DNA of 38,786 bases from Planctomycetota bacterium (GTDB taxonomy: Bacteria; Planctomycetota; UBA8742; JACQVU01; JANLHZ01): contig JANLHZ010000026.1 in assembly GCA_024653775.1 (NCBI GenBank), forward strand, positions 1 through 38,786, in the 5' to 3' direction. The notes beneath the pieces are model-generated. The model worked only from the letters and a program-made list of their open reading frames with translations, ran no database searches and was not told the origin of the DNA. Positions 6,876-38,786 of the stretch are shown piece by piece. The position numbers were made by a program, and so were the translations under genes. Within the stretch, counting starts at the first letter, position 1; every line of letters starts with the position of its first letter.

Positions 6876-7046
6876 ATGTGCCGGGCACAAGTTCGTAGTG
6901 GCGCCGTCAGGCGTTGAAGTTCGTAGTGGCGCCGTCAGGCGTTGAAGTTCGTAGTGACGCCGTCAGGCGTTGAAGTTCGTAGTGACGCCGTCAGGCGTTT
7001 ATATGCCCTCACGGGCACACTACAAACCTGGAAGTGACCGGCACAT
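6876..7046. repeat. Inverted-repeat element (TIR-B) carrying four 28-bp tandem GTAG units
   Basis: Outer arms ATGTGCCGGGCAC (6876-6888) and its near complement (7034-7046) bound the block. Inside, units starting GTTCGTAGTG recur at 6891, 6919, 6947 and 6975, an exact 28-bp period with only G/A variation. Each carries the hairpin CGCC-GTCA-GGCG. The last unit pairs with an inverted second hairpin (GCCC-TCAC-GGGC) closed by CACTACAAAC at 7018-7027. Expansion of one unit inside a mobile-looking frame is the simplest reading. Confidence 0.75.
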
Positions 7047-7744: not shown

Positions 7745-7862
7745 GTAACTGTTCACGGGGTAGTTCACGTTTGTAGTGACGCCGTAAGGCGTCGAAGATG
7801 CCCTGACGGGCACACTACTACAGAATCCCGCTATAGACTGCGAACTACCCGTGAACAGTTAC
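7745..7862. repeat. TIR-A element, copy A (REPIN-like)
   Basis: The outer inverted repeat is GTAACTGTTCACGGGGTAGT and onward (7745-7766), matched by GAACTACCCGTGAACAGTTA and onward (7842-7862) with one base missing. Inside, a GTAGTG foot leads into CGCC-GTAA-GGCG, then GCCC-TGAC-GGGC, then CACTAC closing the outer stem. A short spacer resembling AGAATCCAGCTATAGAC separates CACTAC from the right arm, as in copy B. Confidence 0.8.
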
Positions 7863-7880: not shown

Positions 7881-8093
7881 CAATCAAAACAATGTTTAAA
7901 AAGATTATTAGTGCTATAATCATTGGACTTGGCTGAAAAAATGTAAAAAAAGTCATGCAGAAAAAAAAGCTAATATCAATCGCATTTATTGCATATCGAC
8001 CTCGATTGTGAAATACTTGCGCCAACCTACGTCCAGAGATACGGTACTCACAGCGCAGATAATTGTTACATGATTTCAAATTCGGATAGATCG

Positions 8094-11000
8094 ATGAAGC
8101 AAACAAACCCCTCCGTCGCCGCGAAGCTCGTATGGATCGTGCTCTTCATGACGTCGATCTCATGCGGAGGCGAAATCCCATCTCCCGCGCCGACGACAGG
8201 GTCCGCGAGCAGCGGTGCTGAAACTCCGAATGTCGCTCCAAGCGACGCGCCTACGATCGAGGAGCGTTACGGTTCGCTCGTAACGAAGAACGAGAAGCAA
8301 GGCCTGAAGGAAGTCGTGTTCAACTCGGCAGGCGTCCAGGTCGAACTTATGGCGGAAGAAGGAGAAGTCGTAGGAGATTGGACCTACAGATTATCGTCAT
8401 TCGGAAGGCAGGGCGGACTTCTGCAACTGCAATCGAAGGTTCCCGAACTTGTTTCGTCGAAAGCGATGTTCGATTACGTTTCCGTGAAGGAGTACTACGA
8501 GAACCGCGCACAGGGGGTGAAGCAGAGCGCGATAATCGAGAGTCGTCCCGCGGGCGTGGGGCCGATCGTTCTCGAAGGCGCGGTTTCCGGCTACGAAAGG
8601 GCGGAGGCCCGCGAAGGCGGCGCGGTCATCGTGTTCGATATGGGCGCAAGCCGCTATCTGTATTACAAAGACCTTTTCGTCGAAGACGCACTTGGAATCG
8701 AACTCGACGCGTACATGGAAGTCGCTGACGGTAAAATCCGGATCGTGGTGTACGACACTCCGGAGACGGTTTATCCGGTGAACGTGGACCCGACGATTTC
8801 GTCGAGCGACGACGCGCCGTGGTGGGATATAGACTACGGCTCGCGAACGGTGCTGCACGTTCGAAACTCGAATTCGAGCGATATGCCGCAGGGGTACACG
8901 CTAAGCACTACCTGGGATCACGCGGGCCTCGTTTCCACCAGCCTTTCGCTGGCGTCGGGAAACGACTTCCGGATCGTGTATTACGACAAGACCACGGAGA
9001 CCAGTATCGAACTCGATCGTATCTGCGTTACGAGCTGGAACACTTCGACGACGCAGATTTACTTTCGCGCGCAGGAACGGATTCTCGCTGGCGACGAGTC
9101 GAAAAGCTACTACGCCTACTATAACAATCCTTCAGCGGGATCTCCGCCGAAGGATGGGGTCGACGTCTACATGTTCTACGACGATTTCAGCGGGGGGTTA
9201 TCGTCGTGGGACACGGGAAGCGCGGTTGGATCCTGGTCGACCGTCACGAATTTTCTGGATTCCGCTGATGTCGCGGGCACGCATTATTTCATTCAGCAGA
9301 GCAGCGTCGAGACTCCGACCGATTACGTTGTGGAGTTCGATTGCTATTCGCCTTTCGACGGATCGATCTGGAATCTGTTCATTACGATGAAGGAAAACCC
9401 GGCGGACCCGCAGCAGCGAATCGTCGTCGGAGCGCGGGAAGGCGCCGACCAGTGGGTCGTCGAAAAATGGACCAACTCCACGTCGAACACCACTCTCGCT
9501 TCGGTTTCGCAGACCGTGGATCGCGGTATCTGGTACAAATGCAAGTTGCGGTATCTTTCCGGCACGCTGACTTTCTGGGTCGACGGCGCGCAGAAGTTCA
9601 CTTACACCCTTGTCGCTCCGGAAAACGGCTGGGACGACGTCATCGGTTTAGCGAACGCTAATTCCCACGCGCAGTTCGACAACGTCAAGCTCCGCTATTT
9701 GATGAGTCAGGAGCCAGAAGTGGTCGCGGAGGAGGAGTGGAGCGAGGGCGTGTGCAGTTTCCGCCAGCGAATCGAGGTAACGAACCCGAGCGCGACGAAA
9801 ACGCTCCCCGCCGGATATTCGGTGCGCGTAGACATCCCCCACCAGCTATGGGTGTCTGGTGGAGTGATTGGAGAAGCCGGTTCCGCGACAGTGGACGACA
9901 CCTGGCAGACGATCAACTTCGGTAACGCGTATTTAAGTCCGGTGGTTATCGCGAGCGTTCCGACGTACAATGAGACCGACGAAACCGTCGTGCGGGTCAG
10001 GAACATTTCCGGAAGCTCCTGCCAGATGAAGCTCGAAGAGGTTTCGAACCGCGATGGCGTCCACGGGAACGAAACCGTCGGCTACCTCGTTGTCGAGGAG
10101 GGAGACTGGGACCTCGACGGGACGATCCGTCTGCAGGCCGGGACCGTGGACACCAACGCCGCGGTGAAAGCCGGGACCGGAAACTGGACGAACATCAGTT
10201 TCGCGACGGCTTTTTCAGGCACGCCCGCGGTATTCAGCACGGTTCAGACTTACGCCGAGGCGTATCCGACCAAGACGCGCCAACGCAACGCCACGACGAC
10301 GAACTTCGACGTATCTCTCGAGGAGGACGACGGAGGCGACACCATCCATCTGGCGGAAACCATAGGCTGGGTCGCGGTCACGCAGGGGACGACCACGAAC
10401 AACGGAAGTCTCGCGGAGTTCGATCGGACGGCGGACGCGGTGACGCATAACTGGTACAATCAGACGTTCTCGCAGAGCTACGGCGCGGCTCCGGTGTTCA
10501 TCGCGAATCTCAGCAAGTACGACGGAAGCGACGTCAGCGGTGGCAGGATTCAAAACCTTGCCGCGGGTAGCGTCGACATCAAATGCGAGGAAGACACCAT
10601 CGCCGACGCGGAGATCAACCACACGGGCGAGGAGTTCAGTTTCTTCGCGCTCGAAAACGCCGGGGAGATCACCGCGGTGAACGGTCCCGCTAAGGCGCAG
10701 ATCGACGGCGACGACGTTCGAATCGTCTACTTCAACGGAAGCGCTTACGATGAGATCGACCGCGTCACTTCGAACGGCTGGAACCAGGCTTCGACGAGGC
10801 TCTACTTCAAGACGCAGGCGTCGATCGCGTCATCCGGGGTCGACGACAACTACTTCATTTACTACGGAAACAATGCCCTTGGCGCGCCGCCGGACGACCC
10901 GGAGGACGTGTACCTCTGGTATGACGATTACAAATCGAACACGATCGTCGCCGGTGGAGACGCGTACGCGAACGGCGTTCTCTACGAATCGAACATCACG

Positions 11001-14000
11001 GACAGCTTCTACGCCGTCGGGACCGACTTCCTGAGCAGCAACACTTCCGCGACGATGGGCGCGGGCGGCGTGCTGATTCTCGACATGGGACGAGGCGAGG
11101 AGATCAAGAACGCTGCCGGAACAGACTTCATGGTCGAAACCGAGACCGGCGCCGGGAACGACTTCGACGTCTACATCTCGGAGTGGGAACTCGGACCGTA
11201 CGTCTACGTCGGCGCAGGCACGGCGGCCGATCCGACCTTCGACATCTCGGCAACCGGGATCGCTAAGGCGAGGTACGTCAAGATAGCGCAAACATCGGGC
11301 GCGCCGGAGATAAACGCCATCGTCGCGACCAACAGATTCGCGAGCGTCACCTCGACGAGCTACGTGAACGGAAAGCATGTGGACATAGCGGGGAACAACA
11401 CCGCGCTTGTCCGCTACGATTCCGTCAGGCAGGTCGCGACCTACGACACAGGACGCAACTACTGCGGCGGTCTCAGGCTTCCTTCTATATCCGGGACGGA
11501 CATCCTCGTGCAGGCCGACGTAAACACGTTCCGCGTCTACAACCAGAACGGAACCTTTGGAATGCTCGGCAGGTGGACGACGCAGACCGACAACTACTAC
11601 GCGCACATGTCGAACGGGCAGTACACGTCTCCCGGCATAGCGGTCGGATCGGGCGCGCAGAGGAATACGACGGTCGCCACGCCGGGGGGGAACTCGTACC
11701 TTCCGAACAATACATCCGCAAACGGAGACGGAAACGGCACCAGCGACGGCATGAACCCGCAGCGCTCCACGGTTACGACCGCGGGCGGAATGACCGGGAT
11801 CGACACCCTCCGCTACGGAGTGTATGCGCTCGACGCGAACAACGACGCCCACAGGTTCTGGGTCAACGCGGAAACGGACTCGGCGGCGACTCTGGAAAAC
11901 CTTTCGTACGCGAACGCGGGCTACGCAACCACAGGCCAGCCCGCGATCGAAGCCGCGAACCAGTGGGGATTCCTCGATAATTTCGTCGTGCGAAGGTATT
12001 TCTATCCGGAGCCAGGAGCGGCTCTCACAGGCGAAGCTTCGAGCACCGACTTCAAGGTCATGGGAGTTCATCCGTCGACGAACGCGACGTATCCGGGAGC
12101 GACGGAGGTCCAGATTCTACGCATCGACGTCGAAGCCGGCAGCGGCGAGAGCGCGACGCAGTTCATAATCGCGAGTCAGAACACGACCGACGCCGACGTC
12201 TCTGGAGTTTCTCTCTACTACACCGGGACGAGCACGACCTTCAGCACGACGAGTCCCTTCGGCACAGCAGGCCAGACCTTTAGCGGCGGCGCGGTGACCT
12301 TCAACGACTCTCTCTCCCTCGCAGACGATTCGCTCGTGCACTTCTTCCTCGTGTACGACGTCGCGGGCGGCGCAGGTATCGGAAATACTCTCGACGCGAA
12401 AATCGACGTCGGCGGCGTGACGATAAGCGCGACGCAGTATCCGGAGACCGACCCCGTCGATCCGTCAGGCGGAATCCTTGTCGCAAACCTCCAGACGCTT
12501 TCGGCGGTAACAGTGACGAACATCGATACGTCGAACGCCAAGCCGGGAGGGTCGGACCTTCAGATTCTAAGGATCCAGTTCGACGTAACGGGAACGGGCG
12601 CCCCGCTGTCGATCGAGGAGTTGACGCTGACCACCACGAATATCTCCGACAGCGACGTCAGCACAGTCAGCGCGTACTACACTGGTAACGATCAGGCGTT
12701 CAACACGCTGATGCCATTTGGAACCGTGAACCAGGCGATCTCGTCGGGTCAGGTCGCATTCAGCGATATTCAGGACCTCGGCGATGGAAGCTCGGCGGAC
12801 TCGTTCTATCTTTTCATCACCTATGACATGTCGGACGTCGCAACCCTCGGAAACACCGTCGACGCAAAAATCCTCTCGAACGACATAACCGTCGAAGGCT
12901 CTACGTATCCCGTGACGACACAGGATCCCGCGGGTAACAGGACGATTGCGGTGCCCACGGGAACTATCGCGAACCTGCCGCCGGTCGCGATCTCCGTGGA
13001 CTCGGACCCGTCGCTTCAGAACTTCCAGACCTTTAACGAAACCGACGGCGGCGACGCCGATTTGTACGTCGACAACCTCGAATCCGACGACGGAACCTAC
13101 GCAGGCGGAAACATGGGCGCCATCGGAAACGTGTTCGATCCGCAGAAGGCGAGCGTCGAGTTCCTTTTCGATCTCGACGACGAGGTCGCGGGGATCGAGG
13201 GCAGGGACATCAACTCGCTTCGGGTCGAGTTCGAAATGTACCTGACGGGTCAGAATCTCGGCACCGCTCCTGCGAGTTCGTCCGCCGACTGGGAGGAGGT
13301 GAACTACGCGAAGGTGCAGCTCTACGATTTCGTCAACAGCACATGGAGCACGATGGAAAGCGATTTCCTCCAGACTACCGCGGTCAACTGGAACGGCGGA
13401 GATGAAGCGCTGTATTGGGACAACACCACGGATACGAATCCGGAGCGTCCGCTCAGAAGGTTCAAAAGCTCCGGGTTCTCCGACAGCAACATGAATTCGA
13501 GCGGGCAGATCAAGATCAGGACTGTCATCGAAGGCGTGTTCATCGGAACCGGGGGCAGGTGCAACTTTATCTGCGATTACGCCCACGTGAGCCTCAACTA
13601 CGGCGCGAACGTCGAAATGGTCAGCTACAGGTTCGCCGACAGCGGGCAGCTTCCGCTCGGAAACGAAAACACCGCCTACACCGCGGGAACGGGCGAGGAC
13701 CTACACCTCCGCGCGGGCGTTCGATCGAGGTACAGGCCGTTCGTGGGTCAGAGGATCGGGCTGCAGTACGACACCGACGCGAACTTCACCTCCGGCGACG
13801 GATTCAATCCGAAGGTGATGACGACCTCCACCACGGAACTCACGATGTGGGACGACGGCGCGCACCTCGAAGGCGACACCATCTCGGGTTCGAATCTGCT
13901 TTCGAGTATCGACGTCCTCGGAATATATCACGAGGACGAAATCCCTCCGGTTCAGAACAAAAACCAGGACCTCGTTTACGAGGAGGATTTCACGGTGCGC

Positions 14001-17000
14001 GGACTTTCGACAGGGACGTACTACATTCGCGTGGTGAAGCTCGACGGCTTCGGCGCGCTGCTCGCTCCGCTAGACGTCTCGTCGAACGTGGCGATTTTGT
14101 CAATCGCCACGCCGACGATAAATCAGGCGGCGTATCGCTTTGGAACTAACGTCGCGTCTCCCGTGTGGGACGCGGTGGACACGCCCAAGGAATTGGTCGT
14201 GGACGATATCTACATCCTCGCGGTGCGGATGGAAAATACCGGAGGCACAGGCGCGAACAACAACTGGCAGCTTCAGTTCCAGCAGACGAGCGGGACTCCC
14301 GGACCCTGGCAGAACGTCACCACCGTGGCGAGCGACTGGACCGCGGTCGACGGAGTCTACGCAGCGGACGACGCGAGCGTCGCGACGGCGTCATTCGTCT
14401 GTGGCGCGGGAACTGGCACCGCGGCCGCGGGGAGATACAGCGAAGTCGGCGTGTCGCAGTCCAACACGAATCCGTTCAACATCCCGGCTGGAAATTACAT
14501 GGAATTCTGGTACGCGATTTCGCCTTCGAGCATCGCGGCGGGAAAGGCGTATCGCTTCCGCGTGACGAACAGCGGCTCGTCCGCGGGTTTCAGCTACCTC
14601 GTCAGCCCGGAGGCGCAGCAGGTCAGCACGGAGCAGGTGAGCTACCGCGTGCTCGACGAAAACGAAAGTCCGACAACGAGCGAAAGCGCTTCGGCGCAGG
14701 TTTCGACGGACCAGCTTCTGCATCTTCGCGTCGGGGTCCGCTCGAATAACGGCGGCTGGAGCGGACACCGCCTCGGAATCCAGTACGATACCACGAGCGA
14801 CTTCAGTTCCCCGACGATCGTCACCGACGCGACGTCGATGGTAACGCTCTGGGACGACGGCGATCGCGCGGACGAGAGCGCGGTGGTTGCGCTAAGTCTT
14901 TCGGGAAGTCCGAGCGCGGGTCGCTACCACGAAACGAACGTGCTGAGCGCGGTAGAGCCGGCGATGACCGCGGATCAGCTTTACGAAGAGGATTACTCTA
15001 TCTATTTCGATACCCCTGGGACGTACTACGTCCGCGTGGTGGAGCTTACCGCGGGAGGAGCGTTCAGCGCTGCGCTCGATGACTACTCGAAGCTGATAAC
15101 CTTCAGCGTCACTAATCCTTCTCTCCGTCAGAACTTCTTTAACTTCGCAGCCGACTCGACGACGCCATCGTTTGTCGGGACGGACGTCCAGCTCGAGTTC
15201 GTGCCTGGGACGAAGTACCTGCTTTCGATGCAGATCGAAAACCGCAGCGGCGTGGGCGATGCTCCGTGGTGGAACGGAAGCTACGGCAAGCGCAAACAGA
15301 TCGCGATAACGAACAACAATTCCGTCGACGCGATGCCGACGGGTTACTCGACGTACATCACGATCGACCACGCTTCGCTCGTTACTGGCGGATTATCGCT
15401 CGCAAGCGGAAACGACGTTCGCGTCGTGTACTTCACCGGAGGCGGAAGCGTGGAACTCGATCGAGCCTGCGAGACCTCGTGGAACTCCAGCACGAGTACC
15501 ATCTGGTTCAAGACGCAGGCCTCGATCGGAGCAGGCCTTGCGGACTCGAACTACTACGTCTACTACGATTACAGTTCCGCGGGCGCGCCTCCCGCAAACC
15601 GCGCGAACGTGTACTACTTCTACGACGACTACAGTGGCGGCCTCGGCTCGTGGACTGGGTCTTCGAACGGAACCTGGGCCGTCAACGGCTCCGTGGATGC
15701 GTGGTGCGACGACACGAACCCCGTCGATCAACTCTATTACAAAGCCCTCGGAGGCAGCACCCCCGCGAACAAGTACGTCGAAACAAGATCCCGCGCTTTA
15801 TCGACGGGAGAAAGCAGGAACATGTTCGTCATCACGAACCGCGACAGCGCCACAGGCGACTTCATCGCGTGGGGCGGCGACGACACAAACAACTTCTGGC
15901 GGTTCGAAACCTGGGACATCAGCACCAACGGCCGCGCGACCCAGCAGCAGAACCCATACGCCATCGCATCGGATACCTGGTACACGCTCGGCGTTTCCGT
16001 GGAAGGCGACGAATACGAGATCTACGTCGACGGAGTCCTCAAGATGCAGAGCACTTACAGCACTTCGTGGAATCCGGAGATCGGAATGGGCGCGTATAAC
16101 GCCGACACGGAATTCGACTATTTCAAGGTGCGTCAGTATCTGAGTCCGGAGCCGTCGACGACGGTCGGCGGGACGGACACTCTGGCGAACTTCCAATTGC
16201 AGTTCCAGAAGACGAGCGGCACCCCCGGACCCTGGACGAGCATCACGACGTCTAGCAGCGAATGGCGCGCGCAGAGCGGCGTTTTCGGCGTGGACGGCCG
16301 CACTGTGAATACCAACGAATTCGTCTGCAACTCCGGAAACCCGCCGACGAACGCGGGGACGATCCCGCAGGCCGGCGTATACACCGAAACGGGGGTCTTC
16401 ACGAAGCAGATCACCGCCGGAAACTATCTGGAGCTTTGGTACTGCGTTTCCCCGATGAGCGAAGCCGCGGGCGAAAGCTACAAGTTCCGGGTGACGAACT
16501 CCGGAAACAGTTCCGCGTACACGTATACGACCTACGCCGTCGCGGCGCAGACCCAGATAGAACAGGTGAGCTTCCGCTGGCTCGATTCGGGCGAAGCTCC
16601 CGCGACGAGCGAAAACGCCGGGTACGACGCGACCGTAAACGACGAGCTTCACCTCCGCCTCGGCGTCCGGTCTAATAACGGCGCTTACGGCACGCACTAC
16701 CTCGCGCTTCAGTACGATACGGATATCAACTTCACCTCGCCCACGATAATCACGACGGGCACCTCGAACCTTCGGATGTGGGACGACGGGGATCACAGCG
16801 AAGGCGACGAAGTCGCGGCGTCGTCGCTATCCGGATCGCCCACCCTCGCGAAGTATCACGAGGACAGCATCCCTCCCGCGGAAACGAAGAACGCCGACAC
16901 GCTCTACGAGGAGGACTTCACGGTGAAGGTCGTCGGCACGGGCCAGTTCTACGTCCGCGCGGTCCTTGTGGATTCCTCCGGCGTCTTCGTCAGCGCGCTC

Positions 17001-20000
17001 GATGAATACACGCAGATAATCAGCATAACGGGTAACAATCCATCGTGCAGTCAGACCAGCTACAACTTCGGCGCGGGCGAGTTGACCGCGGGCGCTGGCT
17101 TCGGCAGCGCGAACACCGCGATCCCGTTCTCGCCCGGGACGACGTACACCGTCGCTATCAGAATGGAGAACTCCGGCGCGGTCGCGGTCAACTTCGACAA
17201 CCGCTTGCAGTACCAGAAGACGAACGGCACTCCCGGATCCTGGACCGACGTCACGACTACGTCGAGCGCGTGGAAAGCAGTGGTCAATACCGCTCAGAAC
17301 GGCGCCGCGATCGCTACGGGCAATTTCGTCACGAACGCTGGCGCGCAGGCGCTCATAAACGGAAGGTACTCCGAGACCGGGCACCAGCCGTCGTACAGCC
17401 TGCTCGCGACGAGCGAAACGGAACTCAGATACGAAATTGAGGCCACCGCGTCAGCCATCGGAAATGCTTATCGTTTCCGCGTGACGAACTCTGGCGCGAC
17501 CACGGGTATCGCGTACAGCGTCTATCCGGAGGTCTACGACATCACTTACGAGCAGGTCAGCTTCCGCTTCGCGGGAGAGAACGAAAGCGCGCTCGAGGCG
17601 CAGAACACTTCGCTCCAGGCCGCGGTGGGTCAGCTTCTGCATCTCCGCGTGGGCATTCGCTCGAATAACGCCGCGTGGAACGGGCACAAGCTCGCGGTGC
17701 AGTACGACACGGATAACGCGTTCACGCCGGGCGACGGTTTCAACCCCGTCGTGATGACAATCGGAACAACCGAGCTTCAGATGTGGGACGATTCCGACAG
17801 ATCGGAAAATTCAGGGACCACCGGGCTTATTCTTTCCGGATCGCCCTCCGCGGGAATCTACCACGAAAGCCACGACCTCATAAACGCGCAGAACAAGAAC
17901 GCGGGCACGCTCTACGAAGAGGACTTCACCGTGTGGCCACAGACTACGGGCACATACTACATCCGAGTAGTCGACTACACGACCGCAAGTCCCGTGACGC
18001 TCGATCTCTACACAAGCCCGGTGATTTCGCTGACTGTCAGCGTTCCGAACGTCGGTCAGGCTGCGAGCAACTGGGCGCCGGACGGAGCCACGCCTAGCTT
18101 CGGGACCGTGGACGATATTCTCGAATTCACGACGCCGACGAAATACATCCTCGCGGTGCGCGTCGAAAACACAGGCGCGTCGCCTTCGACGTTCAACTGG
18201 AAATTGCAGTACCAGAAGGATCCGACGGGAACTCCGGGCGCGTGGACGAACGTCACCACCACGAGTAACGATATGCGCGCCACCGACGGCGTCTACGCCA
18301 GCAGCGGAGATACGGTGAACACGGGCAGTTTCGTTACAGGCGCCGGTACGGGAAGCGCCATCGACGGCAAATACACCGAAACTGGAAACGTTAGCGGATT
18401 CACACTCGGCGCGGGCGATTACACGGAACTCTGGTTCGCGGTCCAGACGCAGTCGTCGTCGGCGCTTAACCGTTACAAGTTCCGCGTGACGGACAACGGT
18501 TCGACCAGTTCGTTCACGTACACGGTGTACCCGGAGTGCGCACAGCAGGTTACCGCGCAGCTCGCGTACCGCTGGCTCGATGGTTCAGAGTCGACGGTCG
18601 CGGCGGAGAATAACGTCTACAACGCGATCGTTGGCGATCAGCTCCACGTTCGCGCCGCGATCCGCAGCCGGCATCTAGACTGGGGCACGCATTACTTCTC
18701 GCTTCAGGTAGACGACAACATCGGCTTCTCGTCGCCCGCGATGGTGACGACTTCGGGCGCTGACATCAAATACTGGGACGACGCGGATCGAACCAAAGGC
18801 GACCCCATCGCGGCGCAGATACTAAGCTCCGTGAACGCAAATGGAGTCTACCACGAAGACAGCGTCCCGCCGATCCAGAGCAAAAACGCCGACTCCGTCT
18901 ACGGCGAGGACTTCGCGGTAGAGATCACGAGCGTCGGCAACTTCTACCTCCGCGTGGTGGAGGTAGACTCGGCGGGCACGTTCGTCAGTACCCTCGACTC
19001 CTACTCGTCCACGATCTCTATCTCCGGAAATAACCCGTCGTCGCTGCAGGACAGCTCCGCCTTCGGAAGCGGCGAACTCACGGCGGGCACCGGGTTCCAG
19101 GCCGCCGGGACGTCGCTCAGCATGACTATCGGAAGCAACTACACCCTCGCGGTGCGCATATCGAACACTGGCCTCGTCGCAAGCAGTTTCGACTGGAGAC
19201 TCCAGTACCAGAAGGTAAACGGCACCCCTGGCGCGTGGACCGACGTCAACTCCACGTCCGCCGCGATCAAATCGGTTGCGGGCGGAACCCCGCAGGACGG
19301 GACCGCGATAATCGTCACGGACTTCAGTTCCGGAGCGGGCACTGGAACCGAGGTCGATGGACGCTATTCCGAGACCGGGCATCATCCGGGATACGTCCTC
19401 GGCGCAGGAAACCAGACGGAGCTTCGGTACGAAATCCAACCGCAGACGGGCGCGAAGGGGAACAAATACAACTTCCGCGTGACTAATTCGGGTTCGAGCA
19501 CGGGCTTCGTCTACAACGTCTACCCGGTCTCGTTCAACGTCACGCACGAGCAGGTGGCGTTCGTCGTCTGCGACGACACCGAGGCATCGGTCGCGAACGA
19601 AGACACCGTCGCGTATCTCGCGGTGGATCAGAACGCCCACCTTCGCGTCGGAATCCGCTCGAACCATTCAGACTGGTCCAACCACAAACTCTCGCTCCAG
19701 TACGACGGCGACGGCGACGGCGATTTCTCCACCGGCTCGCCAGTGAACATCACCACCGCAAGCTCTCTCGTTATGATGTGGGACGACGGCGACCACACCG
19801 GCGGCGATTCGCTCACGAGCAAGCTTATCTCGTCGTCGAGCGGAAGCGTCTTCGGCATCTACCACGAAGTCCAGAATCAGGGGTTCCAGACAAAGACCAA
19901 GGACATCAGCTACGAGGAGGATTTCACCATCAAGGTCGATACCGCGGGAACTTACTACCTGCGCGTCGTCGATTACAACGGCGGAACTCCCGCGGCTCTC

Positions 20001-23000
20001 CACACGTATACGAGTCCTGTCGTCCAGATCGTAGTCGCGGTGCCAGCAATTACGCAGGGCGCGTATAACGCGGGGACGAATGTCGCTTCACCCGTCTGGA
20101 CCGGGATCAACACCAAAATGACCTTTGCAACCGGGTCCAACTACATCGCCTCGGTGAGGGTCAAGAACTCAGGCGCGACTCCGCAGAACTACAGTTGGAG
20201 GCTTCAGTTCCAGGAAGATCCACAGGGTACGCCCGGATCGTGGACCAATGTAACAACCACGTCAAGCCACATTCGCGCGGTGGACGGGGCCTTCGGAACG
20301 ACGGGAGACCCCGTGCTCACCGGAACTTTCGTTTCGGGCGCGACTACCGGAACCCCGGTCGACGGCAAATACTCCGAGTCAGGGATAGTGACCGCATACA
20401 CACTCGGCGCGGACGAATATACCGAGTTCTGGTACTGCATCCAGCCGCAGGCCACGGCGGCGCTGAAGCACTACAGGTTCCGCGTCACGAACAACGGAAA
20501 CGCCGGACCGTTCACATACAGCGTCTATCCGGAGATCGCGCAGAAGTCGACGGAACTCGTGAGCTATCGCTGGCTCGATTCCGCGGAAGTCGCGCTGACC
20601 GCGCAGAACACCGCGCTAAACGCCAGCACGAACGACAAGCTCAACCTCCGCGTCGGAGTGAAGTCGAAGGGACTCGACTGGGGAACCCACTACCTCGGTC
20701 TTCAGTACGATACGAACGTCAGCTTCCCATCGCCGATACTCGTCACCACGGGCACCGCGAACGTCCGGTATCACGACGACACCGGGCATAATATTGGCGA
20801 CGCGCTCGGTTCCACGGTGCTCACCGGGACTCCCACCGCGGGCAAGTACCACGAGGGCACCGCGTCGCCGCCAGCGCTTACCGCGAGCGCGTACACCCTC
20901 TACGAGCATAACTTCACCGTCGAGGTTCTGACCGCGAACACGTTCTACCTGCGAGTGGTCGAGCTTAACGGCGACGGCACCTTCAACAAGGTTCTGAATG
21001 TCTATACAATGAAACCAACCGTCAGCGTCTACACGCCGTCGACGGAGCAGATTTCGTACAACTGGGGCGCAGGCGAGCTTACAGCGGGCACGGGCTTCGG
21101 CACCGTGGACACGCAGCTCAGTTTCCTTGTCGACAACACGTACACGCTGACGATGCGCTACGAGAATTCGGGCGGCGCGTCGACCGCCGCCGACTGGCAG
21201 CTTCAGTACCAGAAAACGAACGGCGTTCCCGGCGCGTGGACTAACGTCACCACGGGAAGCGGCGTCTGGAAAGCCGTCGCGAACACGGTTCAGGACGGAA
21301 CCACGGTAACGACGGGCAATTTCGTAACCACCACGGGAGGCGGAACCCCGGCAAGCGGCAGGTACAGCGAAACCGGCAAACACACGAGCTACATCCTCGG
21401 CGCCGGAGACGAAACCGAGCTGAGGTACGAAATCCAGCCTGACTCGGGCGCGGCAGGGAACACGTACAGGTTCAGGCTGACGAACGCTGGCTCGACCACG
21501 GGATTCATTTACAATGTTTACGCGCAGGCGGCGCACGGCTCGACGACCTGGATCGGAACTTCCACCGATTGGAGCGATCCGTCTAACTGGACGAACGGCG
21601 TGCCAGGCGCGAGCGACGACGCGATCGTTCCGGACACCCCATCGGGTGGAAACTTCCCGCTTATTAGCGCGGCGAACGCCTACGCGCGGGATCTCACGAT
21701 TATCGCGGCGACAAGCCCGACGACGATCAGCCTGGACCCAGGGCTGACGCTCACGGTGAACGGCACGCTTACCGTTTCCGGAACGCTGGTGAACAAGGTG
21801 ATTTTCGAGCGTGTCGGAACCACCGGAGGATTCAACTTCACCCTCGGCGCGAGTTCGTCCGTCGACATGGAGTACTTCGAAGTAAACGGCGGACAATTGA
21901 AGTTCGGCTCCGGCACGACGGTATTCCAGTTCAGAAGAGGAAGGTTCGACAATCCCCACACGACGGCGAAATTGTTCCTCGACGTCTCGCTTTACACCGG
22001 CGCCTCGTTCACGGTAGGCGCGGTCAACTTCTTCAACTCGACATACATCGGCGGCGCGAAGAACGTCAAGGCAGCGACGGGGACGAACGTCATCCACTTC
22101 TTCGGGTCGAAGGGTCCGCTCTCGGGCGAGACTTTCGACAACGATCCGTCGAACAAGATCAGATGGTTCGCGAACGAGCCGTGGTTCAGAAACAATAATT
22201 CAGGTTTAGAGTATCCAAACCTGCAGGACGCGATCAACGCCGCTTCGGACGGCGACGAGATAATCTCGAGGAACCCGATTCCGTGGGATGGCGACATCGT
22301 CATTCCCATTAACAACCTTATCCTGCAGGGACTCGTCATCGACGGAAACGTCAACACCAACGGCGTCGCGACCGGCGTCCGTCTTGTAAATCTGTTCGTC
22401 AGCGGCAGCGTCGGAAATACCGGACCTGTGAAGGAGGTTCTGAACTGTAGCGTCGACGGAACGATAAACGCCGATCCTTCGACCGGCGTAGTCAAGTGGA
22501 CGCTTTCCTCCGGAGCCATAAACGCGCCCACGACAGTCGAGAACATCGTCGACGCGTCCGCGTCCACCAACCACTGGCGCGACGTTGCCAAGTTCGATTT
22601 CCATCTGAAGCCGACGTCGACCGCCATCGACGCCGCGACGACCTCCAACGTCCTCATCGACTTCGACGCGCAGACCCGCGCGGACCTCGACTCCATTCCC
22701 GACATCGGCGCCGACGAAGTCGACACCGCGGACGGCATCGGGGATCAGGTCTGGAAGCGCGGCGACAACGACGCCGTTGCGGATCGATTCGGAGTCGTCA
22801 ACAACAAGTATCTGGATCTCTGGGGATCGCAGCTTCTCTGGCTCGTGACTGGACTCGCGGACAACACCGCGTCGAAGTGGCAGAACGCCCTTGTCGCGGT
22901 CGATACGTACCAGGGGGACGTCGTCGCGGGAATCCGCGGCGCGGTCAGCACCACGACCTCCAACCTCGGATTCACGAACGGCTTCATGACATTCCCCGGC

Positions 23001-35312: not shown

Positions 35313-35573
35313 CAAGTTCAGTCTGCGAGCAGGATAAATTCGATCAGAAGCGTCGCGGACGCCACAGTCAAAAATGAAAATAAAATCCAGCGCGGGCAGT
35401 TCGTAGTGTGCTCGTGAGAGCATATTTTCCGTTTGTAGTGTGCTCGTAAGAGCATATATTCTTCGCATAAAAACGCCTTACGGCGCCACTACGAACGCGA
35501 ACTACCCCGCGAACAGTTACGCTTTTTCTTTTTACGACTACCCGCTTGCCGCGGTGATTCGTACCTTGGTTTC
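35313..35573. other. Spacer upstream of trkH
   Basis: About 90 bp after the TIR-D element show nothing I can name. Then comes TIR-A copy C (35400-35521), leaving about 50 bp before the trkH GTG. No Shine-Dalgarno sequence is visible before that start. Confidence 0.5.
35400..35521. repeat. TIR-A element, copy C (inverted orientation, one arm lost)
   Basis: GTTCGTAGTG (35400-35409) pairs perfectly with CACTACGAAC (35488-35497). Between them are two direct GTAG units with TGCTC-GTGA-GAGCA and TGCTC-GTAA-GAGCA hairpins and then the inverse CGCC-TTAC-GGCG hairpin. A single TIR-A arm follows (35498-35521, ending GCGAACAGTTAC); the opposite arm is missing. Relative to copies A, B and D the whole element is reversed. 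Confidence 0.8.
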
Positions 35574-38688: not shown

Positions 38689-38786
38689 GTAACCGTTCAC
38701 GGGGTAGTTCGCGTTCGTAGTGGCGCCGTAAGGCGTTTCTTTGATCCACCACACCGCGAAAATATGCTCTCACGAGCACACTACGA
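38689..38786. repeat. TIR-A element, copy D (cut by window end)
   Basis: The left arm GTAACCGTTCACGGGGTAGT starts 3 nt after the argB stop. GTTCGTAGTG, CGCC-GTAA-GGCG, a longer spacer, TGCTC-TCAC-GAGCA and CACTACGA follow. The right arm would lie past the window. It is in the same orientation as copies A and B and its second hairpin matches copy C. Confidence 0.8.

Follow-up and report, generated by a model that had tools for sequence, protein, structure and literature searches.

REP sequences are normally ascribed to RAYT enzymes, yet certain REP families lack a linked RAYT. REPs and REPINs are built from a short stem–loop with a GTAG foot and occur between genes, as inverted pairs and in tandem clusters (Bertels and Rainey, 2011, PMC3116915; Di Nocera et al, 2013, PMC3733652). 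In Anabaena variabilis, GTAG-15 dimers lie in long palindromes, and GTAG-23 was noted in small ones; neither was linked to mobile ends, and the GTAG-15 palindromes were reported neither as mobile nor with a target duplication (Di Nocera et al, 2013, PMC3733652). MITEPsy1, an element of about 100 bp with 18-bp inverted ends, is thought to be moved in trans and targets CTAG with a 4-bp duplication (PMC3189936). Finally, IS66 elements have inverted ends that begin with GTAAGCG and generate 8-bp duplications (PMC11946415). Here, we describe a new and abundant MITE family, apparently of IS66 type, that carries a REP-like dimer; REP dimers within palindromes as such were already known.

The stretch of DNA analysed, hereafter the window, comprises 38,786 nucleotides of a Planctomycetota genome (contig JANLHZ010000026.1), and its relevant features are collected in Table 1. 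A first-pass annotation of the window had described four copies of one plan, in which hairpins of REP form are wrapped in a 22-bp outer arm. Copies 1 and 2 are indeed complete and follow the order arm, GTAGTG foot, CGCC-type hairpin, oppositely oriented GCCC-type hairpin, inverse foot and arm. Copy 3, however, has only one arm, its left side showing no match to it, and the contig ends within copy 4. The arm length of 22 bp was about right, as a 19-bp core, GTAACYGTTCACGGGGTAG, is extended by WTCGC, and the loops, given as GNNA, are in fact GTNA. The REP form of the inner hairpins was correctly recognized (they have the GTAG foot, stand in inverted pairs and also occur in arm-free copies), as was their enclosure in a second, larger terminal inverted repeat. 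Copy 1 shows no intact target duplication (flanks TCGAAATC / CAAATTTG). Folding gave z = -9.3 for copy 2 as DNA and z = -9.2 for copy 1 as RNA, and no Rfam match was found within the window. Elsewhere in the window, a single 5372-aa open frame spans positions 7989–24107; its first 837 aa match DUF2341 and sugar-hydrolase-like models only weakly.

Table 1. Positions of the armed elements, REP-like hairpins and related repeats in the window.
Feature	Positions	Strand	Description
MITE copy 1	7745–7862	+	Complete, 118 bp; core of left arm 7745–7763, right arm 7845–7862; compact inner pair
First REP-like hairpin of copy 1	7773–7793	+	Foot GTAGTG, stem ACGCC/GGCGT, loop GTAA
Second REP-like hairpin of copy 1	7799–7818	-	Foot GTAGTG (leftwards from 7818), stem TGCCC/GGGCA, loop GTCA
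MITE copy 2	25834–25953	+	Complete, 120 bp; plan as copy 1
Target-site duplication of copy 2, left	25826–25833	+	CAGCCGTG; 7/8 bases equal to right side
Target-site duplication of copy 2, right	25954–25961	+	TAGCCGTG
Copy 3	35403–35520 (first annotated as 35400–35521)	-	One-armed, with the arm at the right end; three hairpins, one of CGCC type and two of GCTC type
Copy 4	38689–38786	+	98 bp of the element, then contig end (= window end); right half missing
Arm-less REP-like cluster	6889–7028	+	Four tandem CGCC-type hairpins (28-bp period) and one inverted GCCC-type hairpin
Member of the second MITE family	24153–24275		Exact 8-bp duplication CAATATTC; hairpin pair GTGGCACGG...CCGTGCCAC

Further copies elsewhere in the genome proved to be numerous and conserved. 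When the arm pattern GTAACNGTTCACGGGGTAG was searched with up to 3 mismatches across the 5,417,346-base host assembly, 265 matches were obtained (140 forward and 125 reverse), against a single match for the reversed-pattern control in the same assembly, which excludes chance. With two arms per element, this number corresponds to about 100 to 140 elements in the genome; an unselected host sample of ~0.57 Mb contained about 10. We recovered 52 complete elements of 118–172 bp, which have GTAACYGTTCACGGGGTAGWTCGC at both ends, forming inverted ends that start with GTAA. Most of them are 140–142 bp long; the commonest length class is 138–143 bp, and 33 copies of this class share a mean identity of 88%, with nearest neighbours up to 98% identical. 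The 8-bp flanks are identical in 26 of the complete elements and differ by one mismatch in nine more (together 35/52), whereas flanks re-paired between elements agree to this degree in only ~1.5% of cases. If the boundary is allowed to shift by up to 2 bases, an 8-bp duplication is found in 39/52, compared with 1.8% of re-paired flanks, and the other 13 have no clear duplication. The 8-bp direct repeats around 35 of the 52 complete elements identify the outer unit as a MITE; the elements are short and none contains a transposase gene. On crude ORF maps, 25/29 elements lie between ORFs, compared with 15% of random points, and the neighbouring ORFs are arranged in every orientation (nine tandem minus, six divergent, nine convergent, five tandem plus). 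Two variants were observed in addition. At L070 (9300–9640), an armed element is partly duplicated in tandem, with the arm repeated inside, and at L228 (G000:C310:41114-41255) the 8-bp flanks GCTGAAGG / CCTTCAGC are inverted rather than direct, perhaps reflecting insertion into a hairpin loop.

The combination of arms starting with GTAA and an 8-bp duplication is the signature of IS66, and the arms would accordingly be of IS66 type. In an exact-pattern scan of GTDB genomes, the arm was found in PVC, Planctomycetota, Desulfobacterales, Chloroflexi and other MAGs, often near contig ends. Three of these matches, all in genomes other than the host, are single ends, nearly identical to the arm, that lie next to genes for IS66 transposases. 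At L236 (PVC group), GTAACCGTTCACGGGGTAC ends 415 bp past the stop codon of an IS66 transposase and matches 18/19 arm positions; at L235 (Chloroflexi), GTAACCGTTCACGGGGGT adjoins a C-terminal IS66 transposase fragment and matches the first 16 arm positions; and at L231 (Planctomycetota), GTAACCGTTCACAG lies directly beside an IS66 transposase (NF033517, 278.6 bits), whose relatives on plasmids share <60% identity with it. A full IS66 element is present at L180, in the same phylum, where the transposase lies between the ends GTAACCGTTCA/GTAAGCGTTCA (also given as GTAACCGTTCAGCCCC and GTAAGCGTTCACCCTC) and is flanked by the exact 8-bp duplication GACCGCCG. None of the IS66 elements recovered is full-length and matches the arms at both ends, which leaves the assignment to the family strong but provisional. 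The host assembly (96% complete, 331 contigs) contains no IS66 transposase detectable with PF03050 or NF033517, so the parent element was lost, unassembled or unbinned. A parent hidden at contig ends was considered and rejected, since of the 28 arms located at contig edges 27 run into the MITE interior; the remaining one is too short to tell. Neither viral contigs nor 59 further genomes of the phylum, one of them from the same order as the host, contained the arms, and the consensus element was absent from plasmids and phages.

The interior of the element consists of two different hairpins in opposite sense, GTAGTG-[A/G]CGCC-GTNA-GGCGT and GTAGTG-TGC[C/T]C-GTNA-G[G/A]GCA. The GTAGT foot does not vary among 18 distinct hairpins. 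Of their stem cells, 96.7% are paired, and four of the five pairs vary on both sides, compared with 27–50% pairing when the partner is slid by 1–3 columns; as the hairpin sequences are related, this covariation supports the structure and is no measure of selection on it. Like REPs and REPINs, the hairpins form inverted pairs and lie outside genes. In a host sample of ~1.19 Mb, which was partly chosen for holding arms, 64 hairpin clusters have one or both arms and 18 have none. Several of these 18 are decayed MITEs or split pairs, and the remaining arm-less pairs belong to another sub-type with GTCA/GTGA loops, GCCC stems, a short spacer and unrelated flanks, which includes tandem 28-bp arrays such as that in the window at 6889–7028. 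The boundary of the arm-less pairs, GTTCGTAG...CTACRAAC, is also that of the pair within the MITE. The arm-less copies in unrelated flanks are at most suggestive of independent movement of the pair. We regard the inner unit as having REP form, an identity based on that form, and not as a proven REPIN.

The same hairpin occurs inside other wrappers, and the same arms enclose other interiors. A search of 392 genomes of the phylum identified the exact hairpin, besides the host, only in G283, a genome of a different family, which has 23 copies and no IS66-type arms. At the sampled sites (L255, L262–L264), the G283 hairpins lie in units of ~140 bp. These have CTAGCCCGCATYATTTACGAAC at one boundary and its inverse at the other, forming an inverted repeat of 18–22 bp, and the flanking CTRG resembles a 4-bp duplication. 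The G283 wrapper, judged from these boundaries, resembles a CTAG-targeting MITE. The same hairpin is found in two different wrappers in two lineages. The host also contains a second MITE with the ends GTGAACGTTCGGTGAACCACG (37 end matches in the DNA examined), which is mostly 123 bp long, has 8-bp duplications and carries a different hairpin pair. At L108 (14572–14747), a member of this second family, with the duplication CGTTTATA, splits an arm-less REP-like pair mid-way, which gives an order of insertions. Conversely, the elements at L102 (2139–2302) and L103 (17885–18048) have IS66-type arms around a different interior with GACGTCC hairpins.

Five Y1_Tnp loci were found in the host genome. 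Four of their proteins were scanned: three have their best score, which stays under the cut-off, with the model of REP-associated transposases, and the fourth is IS200-like. Some of the host Y1 genes adjoin repeats other than the GTAGTG hairpin. At L011 (G000:C164), the abundant repeat TTCGTGCCGTCTACGAA lies on both sides of a RAYT-like gene (1096–1193 and 1896–2013), and is probably the own repeat family of that enzyme. At L012 (388–2736, G000:C288), the translation reveals a Y1 transposase-like domain within a 783-aa frame that is otherwise PurH-like; the domain is perhaps an in-frame insertion.

Several mechanisms could account for the spread of the outer unit. The first-pass annotation had suggested a RAYT, that is an IS200-like Y1 transposase, as the mover and had named a search for its gene near one copy as a check. 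The GTAG foot, the inverted pairs and the several RAYT-like Y1 genes in the genome fit this proposal. However, none of the five host Y1 loci, nor any of five in G283, has the GTAGTG hairpin within 1.5 kb, the Y1 genes examined adjoin other repeats instead, and it is the outer arms that are flanked by 8-bp duplications, as with an IS66-type DDE transposase. HUH/Y1 enzymes are not known to make such duplications. Movement of the whole unit by a RAYT is thus unsupported and highly improbable, being largely refuted for the outer unit though not for the inner pair, whose status as a RAYT-driven REPIN is unproven, given that the hairpins are absent from the 1.5 kb around every Y1 or RAYT gene examined. 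The elements might also be kept mainly as RNA structures, for instance terminators or 3'-end stabilizers, and spread by recombination. The intergenic bias and the very stable folding are consistent with this, but target duplications at most sites show transposition and the adjacent ORFs lie in all orientations, which makes this explanation very unlikely. We instead favour a well-supported mechanism in which the outer unit would be a non-autonomous IS66-type MITE, mostly 140–142 bp long, whose 19–24 bp ends an IS66-family DDE transposase would recognize in trans, inserting the element mostly between genes and duplicating 8 bp of the target. The hairpins may also have a role in RNA or DNA.

For the inner pair, an origin by acquisition is probable. 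The pair could instead be native to the MITE and not an acquired REP, the arm-less pairs being MITE fragments; in neither the host nor G283 is a RAYT found within 1.5 kb of the hairpin, 27/28 contig-edge arms open into the same interior, and the arm-less sites C312:8302 and C165:25627 are clearly decayed MITEs. Most arm-less pairs, however, are of the other sub-type (GTCA/GTGA, GCCC, short spacer, arrays) in unrelated flanks, and the identical hairpin pattern is present 23 times in G283, which lacks such arms, so that we consider a native pair unlikely. Alternatively, REP-like dimers may prefer palindromes as insertion sites, the MITE having been a favoured target that then spread. GTAG dimers inside palindromes have been described (Di Nocera et al, 2013, PMC3733652), and the G283 hairpins lie within another inverted repeat of 18–22 bp, but no dimer-free scaffold sharing the subterminal sequence was found for either wrapper, the IS66-type arms included, which makes an insertion event undemonstrable; this preference seems somewhat unlikely. 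It is quite probable, in our assessment, that a non-autonomous IS66-type element amplified a REP-like dimer that it had acquired: the inverted pair of GTAG-foot hairpins, perhaps then a mobile REPIN, would have entered the interior on one or a few occasions, to be copied thereafter as a passenger with each new copy of the element. Against this reading, no arm scaffold that lacked just the hairpin pair was found. More tentatively, it is conceivable that MITEs of differing ends are entered time and again by REP-like dimers, which so spread without a RAYT of their own, DDE transposases thereby dispersing REPs. This reading of mobility on two tiers draws on the IS66-type wrapper here, the CTAG-flanked wrapper in G283 and the second host MITE with its other hairpin pair.

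Compared with the known systems, the element shares with the IS66 family and with IS-derived MITEs the inverted ends starting with GTAA, the 8-bp target duplication and the near-identical ends beside IS66 transposases elsewhere. It differs from them in that its interior is a REP-like pair and not a shortened IS, and in that no IS66 transposase occurs inside it or elsewhere in the assembly. With REPs and REPINs it has in common the GTAG foot, the short stem–loop, the inverted pairs, the tandem clusters and the intergenic position (Bertels and Rainey, 2011, PMC3116915; Di Nocera et al, 2013, PMC3733652), but it differs in having no linked RAYT, in pairing two different hairpins with a 5-bp stem, and in that most copies lie within a larger element that has its own target duplication. 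MITEPsy1 is similar in its size of about 100 bp, its inverted ends and its presumed mobilization in trans, and the flanks of the G283 wrapper are similar to its CTAG target; it differs in its 4-bp duplication and contains nothing REP-like. The form, which the first-pass annotation had not recognized, is not wholly new, as in the Anabaena variabilis GTAG-15 family a longer inverted repeat likewise encloses a GTAG dimer (PMC3733652). This is the closest published precedent found, and apart from it the open literature, which leaves most subscription journals outside, yielded no direct precedent for IS66-type MITEs or for REPs inside MITEs, those of IS66 type included. Here, in contrast to the GTAG-15 palindromes, the outer repeat is mobile and of an identifiable IS type.

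For the host, the element family accounts for many of the contig breaks in its assembly. The analysis also advises against assuming that each GTAG hairpin is driven by a RAYT. Taken together, one mobile repeat family appears to be spreading another, and a REP-like dimer inside an element of different transposition chemistry would provide a concrete, testable route for the spread of REPs without a RAYT.
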